Assembly: GCA_009380095.1 (NCBI GenBank)
Contig: WHSL01000035.1
Location: 1-36,524, forward strand
DNA: 36,524 nt
Reading direction: 5' to 3'
DNA from: Streptosporangiales bacterium
GTDB lineage: Bacteria; Actinomycetota; Actinomycetes; Streptosporangiales; Streptosporangiaceae
In this document: positions 30,814 to 32,401 of the stretch, piece by piece
Numbering within the stretch: position 1 is the first letter of the stretch
Layout of the letters: each line of letters opens with the position of its first letter
The notes under the pieces: generated by a model
The model's database searches: none
Told to the model about the DNA's origin: nothing
The model's input: the letters and a program-made list of their open reading frames with translations, nothing else
Position numbers and translations under genes: made by a program

Positions 30814-31179
30814 ATGCGCATGACGACGCGCGCGGCCGGGATCGCGGTGGCCGCGGCGGCCGGCGCTCTCATGTTCGGGTCGCCGGCCCAGGCCATGGAG
30901 AAGGACGACGGCGGCGACTGGAACAACAACGTCCAGCTCGTTCCGGTTCAGCTGTGCAACAGCGACATCGCCGCCCTGATCGGCGTGCAGGTTCCGGTCA
31001 TCAGCCCGGAGACCGTGGGCGGGCCGTGCATCAACGGGCCCGTGCAGGGCGTCGACAAGGACTCCAAGGACTCCAAGGACTCCAAGGGCGGCCACAAGGG
31101 CGGCAAGCACGGTAAGGGCGGCAAGGACGGCTACAACGGCGGCCACGGCGACGGCTACAACGGCGGCTACAAGGACTGA
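30814..31179 (+). CDS. Small secreted two-cysteine protein A, with Lys/Gly-rich tail
   Basis: A 121-residue precursor. Residues 1-27 are a signal peptide with AQA at the cleavage site. The mature core (about 35-76) is rich in Asn, Val and Ile: WNNNVQLVPVQLCNSD, then IGVQVPVISPETV and GPCINGPVQ, with two cysteines about 27 residues apart. A 43-residue tail follows, with three DSK units encoded by a perfect 9-bp tandem repeat (31060-31086) and then Gly/Lys/His/Tyr-rich sequence. Two homologues without the tail follow downstream. Size, signal, two Cys and beta-prone core resemble chaplins, but the sequence is not chaplin-like. It is probably a cell-surface protein; the function is unknown. Confidence 0.85.
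   Translation: MRMTTRAAGIAVAAAAGALMFGSPAQAMEKDDGGDWNNNVQLVPVQLCNSDIAALIGVQVPVISPETVGGPCINGPVQGVDKDSKDSKDSKGGHKGGKHGKGGKDGYNGGHGDGYNGGYKD
31060..31086 (+). repeat. 9-bp tandem repeat GACTCCAAG x3
   Basis: Three perfect copies of GACTCCAAG encode Asp-Ser-Lys three times at the start of the tail of secreted protein A. The number of units could vary between strains by slippage without frame loss. Confidence 0.85.
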
Positions 31180-31229
31180 GCGCCCGTACAGGGCGGGTGC
31201 CGCGCCACGCCGGCGGCACACCACCACCC

Positions 31230-31265
31230 CCGAGGCGCCGGGACCGTAAGGTCCCGGCGCCTCGG
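31230..31265 (+). terminator. Strong hairpin terminator after secreted protein A
   Basis: Bases 31230-31245 and 31250-31265 form a perfect 16-bp stem closed by GTAA, 51 bases past the stop. No clear T-run follows. It should separate this transcript from the downstream copy. Confidence 0.8.
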
Positions 31266-31496
31266 AACGTGCGGAGGCCTGCGACCGAAAGCCCGCCCGG
31301 AAACGCGGGCGAATTAGGGCGAAATCGAATTAGCACCAGCAAATAGTGCGCCCCCGCCGAGAATCTCGTGTCCGATGCGTGGCGCGAGCCGCATCGCGCG
31401 CATCTTTGTGTAATGTCATGCTCGCTTTGGGTGAGGTCTGCCACCCGGCAGGCCGGCCCGGAGACACCGGCAACAAACCAAGTTGGGGGACGAGAA
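31266..31496 (+). other. Non-coding gap upstream of secreted protein B
   Basis: About 230 bases between the terminator of the first small secreted-protein gene and the start of the second. Part of it (about 31310-31425) is less GC-rich than the rest of the window, as expected for a promoter, with GAAATCGAATTAG near 31320. No reading frame here has support. A closing GGGGGACGAGAA precedes the next GTG and is probably its ribosome binding site. Confidence 0.5.
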
Positions 31497-31730
31497 GTGC
31501 TGAAGAAGACCATTGGCGTTGCCTTTGTCGCCGCCGCGGGCCTCATGATGATGGGCTCGCCGGCCAACGCCGACATGAAGCACGACTTCCCGTCGGGCGA
31601 CTGGAACAACAACGTCCAGCTCATTCCGATTCAGCTCTGCAACAGCGACATCGCCGTCCTCGGCGTGCAGGTTCCGATCGCCTCCCCGGAGACGACGGGT
31701 CCCTGCATCAACGGCCCCGTCCAGGACTAG
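31497..31730 (+). CDS. Small secreted two-cysteine protein B
   Basis: A 77-residue precursor with a signal peptide (LKKTIGVAFVAAAGLMMMG, cleavage after SPANA, residue 25) and a mature chain of 52 residues. The core WNNNVQLIPIQLCNSD, VQVPIASPETTGPCING is shared with proteins A and C; the two cysteines should form a disulphide outside the cell. GTG at 31497 follows a GGGGGA-type ribosome site. Relative to copy C it lacks one codon in the DIA-LGV segment and one before GPC. Coding DNA is almost identical to copy C for the first 160 bases. Its own terminator follows. The function is unknown; a surface structural role is plausible. Confidence 0.85.
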   Translation: MLKKTIGVAFVAAAGLMMMGSPANADMKHDFPSGDWNNNVQLIPIQLCNSDIAVLGVQVPIASPETTGPCINGPVQD

Positions 31731-31799
31731 GGCCGTCTCGGGGTCGCGGCCGGCCCACCATGCCGGCCGTACCTTCCGAGCATGTGAGGGAATGTCTCG

Positions 31800-31832
31800 G
31801 GGGCATCGGATCCGCGCACCGATGCCCCTTTT
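31800..31832 (+). terminator. Intrinsic terminator after secreted protein B
   Basis: GGGGCATCGG (31800-31809) and CCGATGCCCC (31819-31828) form a 10-bp perfect stem with a nine-base loop, directly followed by TTTT. This is the most canonical Rho-independent terminator in the window. Confidence 0.9.
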
Positions 31833-32007
31833 CCACGTCTATGGCACGGCCACCACTCCACATTCTTTACGTTGATCTTGCATGTCGGTCATGGTTCCCC
31901 CCGCGGCGGCGGGCAATGCTTCAACCTGACGGCACATTCTCGGGCCCCGAGAGTGCCGGAGAAGGGCCTATGGGTCATTTCCGACAATCGAAATCGAGGG
32001 AATCGAC

Positions 32008-32247
32008 GTGCTGAAGAAGACCATTGGCGTTGCCTTTGTCGCCGCCGCGGGCCTCATGATGATGGGCTCGCCGGCCAACGCCGACATGAAGCATGACTTC
32101 TCGTCGGGCGACTGGAACAACAACGTCCAGCTCATTCCGATTCAGCTCTGCAACAGCGACATCGCCGCCCTGATCGGCGTGCAGGTTCCGATCGCCTCCC
32201 CGGAGACCGTCGCCGGCCCCTGCATCAACGGTCCCGTCCAGGACTGA
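32008..32247 (+). CDS. Small secreted two-cysteine protein C
   Basis: A 79-residue precursor, the closest paralogue of protein B, with the same signal peptide and the core WNNNVQLIPIQLCNSDIAAL, VQVPIASPETVAGPCING. The mature chain is about 54 residues with two cysteines. GTG at 32008 has GAGGG seven bases upstream. The 277-base gap before it includes a less GC-rich stretch around 31850-31885 and the terminator of copy B, so it probably has its own promoter. No cell-wall anchor, LPXTG or membrane helix is present apart from the signal peptide, so it is expected to be released or to assemble on the surface. Confidence 0.85.
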   Translation: MLKKTIGVAFVAAAGLMMMGSPANADMKHDFSSGDWNNNVQLIPIQLCNSDIAALIGVQVPIASPETVAGPCINGPVQD

Positions 32248-32270
32248 TCCCAGGGCACACCCATGCGGCG

Positions 32271-32299
32271 GGGGACGCCGGGCTCGGCCCGGCGTCCCC
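32271..32299 (+). terminator. Hairpin terminator after secreted protein C
   Basis: GGGGACGCCGGGC (32271-32283) and GCCCGGCGTCCCC (32287-32299) form a perfect 13-bp stem with a three-base loop, 24 bases beyond the stop, followed by TTCC. Confidence 0.85.
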
Positions 32300-32401
32300 T
32301 TCCGCCGTGCGGGGCCGAAATGTGGTTTGCTCACAACAGACCTGTGCGCCGCGCCGTCCACGCGGCCGCACGCGGGGCGGTCCGTCACACCGGGAGAATC
32401 C

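Follow-up and report, generated by a model that had tools for sequence, protein, structure and literature searches.

What are the three small, presumably exported proteins encoded in a row in this DNA, and do they belong with the proteins that coat the aerial hyphae and spores of actinomycetes? The window (the whole stretch of 36,524 nucleotides that was analyzed) had received a preliminary description in which the three genes were proposed to form a separate family of surface proteins, chaplin-like in design but not in sequence. Judged from sequence, what is new here appears to be an unnamed family, and its kind appears to be a known one, that of exported coat proteins. Its resemblance to chaplins and to rodlins is slight, though it was tested against controls. 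The matter is of some consequence, as the water-repellence of aerial hyphae and spores is poorly known in actinomycetes other than Streptomyces, and a conserved multigene family with a dedicated promoter offers a concrete target for the study of such non-Streptomyces coats.

The features of the locus are as follows.

30814-31179, + strand: gene 1, ATG start, 121 aa, two cysteines, signal peptide; family profile E value 4.2e-22
30814-30894, + strand: predicted signal peptide of gene 1, ending in AQA, read from the translation without a signal-peptide program
30916-31041, + strand: two-cysteine core of gene 1 (DWNNNVQLVPVQLC...CINGP)
31230-31265, + strand: inverted repeat 3' of gene 1, perfect 16-bp stem; terminator candidate without a T run
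31497-31730, + strand: gene 2, GTG start, 77 aa, two cysteines; family profile E value 4.8e-23
31497-31571, + strand: predicted signal peptide of gene 2
31599-31718, + strand: core of gene 2
31800-31828, with TTTT to 31832, + strand: 10-bp inverted repeat 3' of gene 2; terminator-like, read from the sequence
32008-32247, + strand: gene 3, GTG start, 79 aa, two cysteines; family profile E value 1.6e-22
32008-32082, + strand: predicted signal peptide of gene 3
32110-32235, + strand: core of gene 3
32265-32305, + strand: 19-nt inverted repeat 3' of gene 3, 89% complementary; terminator candidate without a T run

In their translations, all three precursors show a basic start, then a hydrophobic stretch with A-x-A at its end, which is the pattern of a Sec-type signal peptide, and neither alanine of the A-x-A varies among the 26 family members that were aligned. 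The three proteins have in common a core of ~42 residues that reads DWNNNVQL(I/V)P(I/V)QLCNSDIA..GVQVP..SPET..GPCINGP. Each contains exactly two cysteines, spaced by 21 or 23 residues. In gene 1, the core is followed by a tail of 45 residues that is rich in Lys, Gly, Asp, and Tyr and contains some His. Neither an LPxTG sequence nor a hydrophobic stretch of membrane scale was found in the mature parts of the three proteins. The preliminary description had claimed three such genes, signal peptides, two conserved cysteines, and the lack of an anchor, and all of these claims stood, the cysteines well beyond the window, as both are present in every one of the 131 unique core domains that we collected.

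Gene 3 is a near-copy of gene 2. Over codons 1 to 51, two codons differ, one of them synonymously; beyond codon 51, there are few base differences and two in-frame 3-base gaps; and the flanks of the two genes are unrelated to each other. Because the identity ends at the borders of the open reading frames (ORFs), it is possible that the two genes were homogenized by recent conversion between copies. A strong inverted repeat follows each of the three genes, which makes three separate transcripts plausible. Separate terminators had also been proposed, and here the outcome was mixed: the repeats are there for every gene, but a T run is found at the second alone, and a scan for consensus terminators reported none of the three.

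Searches of Pfam and of NCBIfam gave no match to any of the three window proteins at an E value of ≤10. In the window's own genome, the protein query and the profile found these three copies and no more. Elsewhere the core recurs: of 60 genomes searched with the protein query, 10 had members (own genome counted), and of 250 genomes from the GTDB family searched with a profile of the mature core, 47 did, representing 14 of its 68 genera. The proposal of a separate family was thus upheld. A full-length profile (A1) gave weak matches beyond the family, and those that were translated were chaplins or owed their score mainly to signal-peptide likeness; since that profile catches signal peptides and chaplins, the later counts rest on the mature core. 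The mature-core profile is also the stricter one, missing the single divergent copy that the protein query found in each of G001 and G020. Carrier genomes have between two and six matches to it, and 32 of the 47 have exactly four. The named loci number 16, of which 12 are from Nocardiopsis, 3 from Streptomonospora, and 1 from Marinitenerispora. Arrays of two draft genomes (L013, L016, L025, and L082) lie at contig ends; near-identical copies may break assemblies, so copy numbers in such genomes are best read as lower bounds.

The first cysteine is followed by Asn or Arg in all 131 core domains, and the second stands in the context C-x-N-G in 125 of them. Most members have a mature chain of ~50 residues and, like genes 2 and 3, no tail, the core being the conserved part; His-rich tails occur in all four members of G021, and a few further arrays have one on their last gene. 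The cores are rich in Val, Ile, and Leu and in Asn and Gln and low in charge, with a charged fraction of 0.066 versus 0.278 in other ORFs and an Asn-plus-Gln fraction of 0.24 versus 0.036. The composition of window gene 3 is milder than the family mean (0.148 charged and 0.167 Asn plus Gln). In the open-licence literature on chaplins, rodlins, amyloid, and aerial mycelium in Nocardiopsis, Actinomadura, and Thermobifida, as represented by titles and the beginnings of abstracts, the family is not described.

A match to a characterized family of another function, such as a toxin, bacteriocin, or inhibitor, or evidence of retention in the cytoplasm had been named beforehand as counting against a coat role. 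Both were looked for. In the Pfam and NCBIfam searches, 26 members did not agree on any toxin, bacteriocin, or inhibitor family, and a toxin, bacteriocin, inhibitor, or RiPP identity was set aside on that ground. No sign of cytoplasmic retention appeared, and the members have predicted signal peptides. A search for relatives with solved structures returned six chance matches (best E value, 0.87), and two AlphaFold predictions produced no confident fold (pLDDT of 48 and 52), which is uninformative either way. An Rfam search of one 2.3-kb stretch gave subthreshold matches only.

Chaplins are the most obvious candidates for comparison. They assemble into amyloid layers, and all but ChpE have two cysteines, thought to be disulfide bonded and important in ChpH (PMC5618241). 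Species with chaplin-like genes include Nocardiopsis dassonvillei and Thermobifida fusca (PMC4255298). A plain chaplin identity of the window proteins was set aside on two grounds. First, as the preliminary description had anticipated, they have no match to the chaplin model PF03777 at an E value of ≤10, and this model is not among the 20 families listed for 26 members. Second, the three GN motifs of chaplins, 12 to 13 residues apart by the spacing given in PMC13251363, are missing from all three window proteins. Any GN motif is found in just 6 of 131 family domains, versus two or more in 159 of 161 chaplin domains, a comparison set that was chosen by a C-x-N pattern, so that one GN is partly built in.

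The claim that the likeness to chaplins does not extend to sequence was not borne out, as the core has a weak, in-register similarity to chaplins and also to rodlins. The chaplin alignments cover the first half of the family core, around the first cysteine (VPVxxC..xVxVxG), and several of them keep both cysteines in register. Of 161 chaplin domains scored on the family profile, 84 matched at an E value of ≤10, versus 3.6 shuffled sequences. The reverse test was far less clear, with 6 of 131 family domains matching the chaplin profile versus 2.2 shuffled (maximum, 5) and a best family score of 6.6 bits versus 12.6 bits for a shuffled sequence. Profile-profile alignment of the family with chaplins gave a score of 17.5 and a probability of 21%, with 3 of 500 column shuffles reaching that score; in global mode, the probability was 0.2 to 0.4%.

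Chaplins and the family also occur in the same genomes. The core profile found no chaplin in the window's own genome at an E value of ≤10, and PF03777 has 20 matches there, all on three other contigs. These matches (L001 to L008; contigs C306, C297, and C45) lie in long, multirepeat frames of 204 to 571 aa on small contigs, which differ from the one- and two-domain chaplins of Streptomyces coelicolor (PMC5618241). Among 37 genomes of the GTDB family searched for both, all 10 that bear the family have chaplins, versus 16 of the 27 that do not (one-sided P of 0.015, with kinship ignored). In G001, a chaplin frame of 437 residues has an LPxTG-type end, and the divergent member starts ~280 bp downstream of this frame. 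Separately, G386 encodes a small exported protein (L057:1345-1788; core, GNVVSVPIDVCNVNVLAIVLGQKC) that is seemingly intermediate between chaplins and the family and has no Pfam match at an E value of ≤10.

A plain rodlin identity was likewise set aside. The rodlin model NF041022 does not match the window proteins at an E value of ≤10, and its best E value among 26 members, two of which it matches, is 0.12. Neither does it match anything in the window's own genome. Of 394 genomes of the class, 31 have a match to the model; 30 of these belong to a single genus, and this GTDB family has none. PMC4255298 places obvious rodlins in streptomycetes only, with very low-scoring matches in two other genera. 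Outside the main rodlin-bearing genus, the C-terminal part of one 281-residue frame (L223:905-1747, - strand) matches the rodlin model at 8.1e-6, and this frame has no match to the family profile.

Rodlins align with the other half of the family core. The match covers ~17 residues and is confined to the C-terminal rodlin block, with the pattern VP[VI]LSxPQxxxxCTxN, in which the x after LS is optional (VP[VI]LS(x)PQxxxxCTxN). A rodlin profile matched 20 distinct nonrodlin ORFs (E values from 1e-4 to 5), and 18 of these were family members. On the family profile, 27 of 36 rodlin cores matched versus 1.35 shuffled, with best scores of 10.9 versus 11.6 bits; in the opposite direction, the counts were 64 of 131 family domains versus 3.0 shuffled and the best scores 11.7 versus 11.4 bits. 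The profile-profile score was 18.3 with a probability of 8%, and 3 of 500 shuffles reached it. In RdlB, the amyloid-determining region comprises residues 17 to 42 of the mature protein, near its N terminus (PMC5314377). Because the family lacks this N-terminal part, amyloid formation cannot be predicted from the likeness to rodlins by itself.

To consider the two likenesses together, the mature-core profile was run against 8,467 ORFs taken from family, chaplin, and rodlin loci. Among the 22 nonfamily matches at an E value of ≤1 were 13 chaplins and 5 rodlins, in a library that is richer in both than a genome would be (they account for 134 of its 8,329 nonfamily ORFs) and in which kinship was ignored. 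The other four were the G386 intermediate, an out-of-frame ORF overlapping a family gene, and two short ORFs without assignment. Chaplins and rodlins with shuffled residues gave 0.1 matches on average and never more than 1, and no windows of unrelated families reached the local profile-profile scores (0 of 62 and 0 of 90). No direct recognition was seen between chaplins and rodlins (0 of 161 and 0 of 36). Homology of the family with both chaplins and rodlins is thus suggested by these comparisons, not proven.

The main alternative to common ancestry is convergence among exported peptides of low charge, and it forms part of the rival explanation that survives best. Under that explanation, the family would be a secreted protein of the mycelial matrix or of adhesion, neither tied to sporulation nor amyloid, which resembles the coat proteins because low-charge exported peptides rich in Val, Pro, and Asn come to look alike. 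The low profile-profile probabilities fit with this, as does the chaplin profile, which barely prefers the family over shuffled sequences. The arrays of relatives add a further point in its favor, since their promoter contains TTGACA. Set against it are the controls, in that neither shuffled sequences nor windows of unrelated families reproduce the number or the strength of the matches, and the register of both cysteines in several chaplin alignments. We regard this explanation as unlikely overall, though deserving of real weight.

The promoter just mentioned was seen when 13 regions upstream of the first genes of arrays in relatives (L067 to L081) were aligned. They share GGCGTTGACA, then ATGATT, and then GTCCACCGC, at near-constant spacing. 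TTGACA corresponds to the -35 element that housekeeping sigma factors recognize. In 30 genomes, the pattern TTGACAN{14,22}GATTN{3,9}GTCCACC has exactly one match in each of 16, all of them among the 23 family-bearing genomes and none among the 7 others, and in 16 of 16 cases it ends 62 to 71 bases 5' of the array's first family match. The reversed pattern, used as a control, did not occur. Variants with two or three mismatches precede the arrays of G139 and G245; a looser search of 20 genomes (up to three mismatches) gave, among the matches listed, scattered sites besides the array promoters, one of them recurring. The pattern has no match in the window's own genome, and the best promoter score in the window is -25, versus at least 53.8 for any true site, so the window copies are presumably run differently. 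Between promoter and start codon, most of 27 leaders from the arrays can form a stem-loop, followed in many by a U-rich stretch; L071:7623-7697 provides an example. The mean z score of leader folding is only -1.0, and 7 of the 27 leaders are no more stable than shuffled sequences. Such a stem-loop could be an attenuator or a stabilizing hairpin.

The surroundings of the genes also differ between window and relatives. Upstream of the window genes, on the opposite strand, lie a Dabb-domain gene and a SAM-methyltransferase gene; downstream are a gene without a Pfam match and a beta-lactamase-fold gene. In 19 large loci of relatives, the array has conserved surroundings of its own, which are not found in the window. 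In both relatives that were scanned for it, the array is followed downstream by a Wadjet-like operon (L067:10051-16241 and L069:9379-16240), with matches to JetB and JetC in both loci and to JetA in one, and JetC-related genes are present in all 19 of the large loci compared and absent from the window.

It is also possible to see in the family metal-binding wall proteins, the tails of which would bind Zn or Cu while the core keeps them at the surface. The His-rich tails described above point this way, and single members weakly match His-rich or metal-uptake families. Most members, however, lack a tail, what is conserved is the core, and the neighbors scanned (14 genes of the window, some close by and some distant, and 6 genes of one relative) include no gene for metal uptake. 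We consider a metal-binding role quite improbable. Secreted antimicrobial or signaling peptides, bacteriocin-like or processed, are more improbable still: small size, export, two cysteines, tandem copies, and arrays that adjoin a Wadjet-like defense operon in relatives would suit them, but no bacteriocin or RiPP family matched above chance, the same 14 and 6 neighbors include no gene for maturation, immunity, or peptide export, the window has no Wadjet neighbor, and the steady four matches in 32 of 47 genomes would suit structural dosage better than an arms race.

Taken together, these observations suggest that the family probably helps to build a surface coat. The more specific proposal, that it is a third such group of exported proteins, alongside chaplins and rodlins, we hold to be evenly balanced between true and false. 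A coat protein of this kind might work as follows. The precursor would be exported by the Sec route and cut by signal peptidase after the predicted A-x-A, and the mature core of ~45 residues would form a disulfide. Cores could then assemble with those of sister copies on the surface of hyphae or spores, next to the cell's own chaplins, and long chaplins anchored in the wall might tether them. Copies with a tail, such as gene 1 and the His-rich copies of some relatives, could fix the layer to the wall. The role would be a developmental one in aerial growth, with the coat acting in sporulation, and the family may share common ancestry with chaplins and rodlins.

Should the family prove to be linked with both chaplins and rodlins, a shared origin of the two coat families would be indicated. 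An excerpt of PMC5314377 notes only an SVIGL motif as common to chaplins and rodlins. A bolder reading takes the family as the missing link between the two, and the array of the Nocardiopsaceae, with its own dedicated promoter, as the counterpart of the rodlins in lineages that have none; if true, chaplins and rodlins would derive from one ancestral exported core with two cysteines. We put this forward as a speculative and rather doubtful idea.

Among known systems, the short chaplins of Streptomyces coelicolor (ChpD to ChpH) resemble the family in being exported and unanchored, in having a low-charge mature core of ~45 to 55 residues with two cysteines and several copies per genome, and in the VPVxxC..xVxVxG stretch that aligns in register. 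Two cysteines per domain are common to the family and the chaplins, yet they are not exclusive to chaplins. Unlike chaplins, the family has CN after the first cysteine where they have CGN, and it carries an extra P-x-x-SP-Q/E-T between the cysteines. The rodlins RdlA and RdlB are likewise exported surface proteins, encoded in small gene groups and rich in Asn and Gln (0.20 in the three rodlin cores measured, versus 0.24 for the family), but the family core is about half as long as theirs and has no counterpart of the N-terminal, amyloid-forming stretch of RdlB (PMC5314377). Finally, CwpA and CwpB of Actinoplanes missouriensis are hydrophobic proteins exported to the surface; they have no chaplin domain and are believed to do the work of long chaplins (PMC13251363). 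These are sortase anchored and much larger, whereas the family is small, unanchored, and arranged in tandem.
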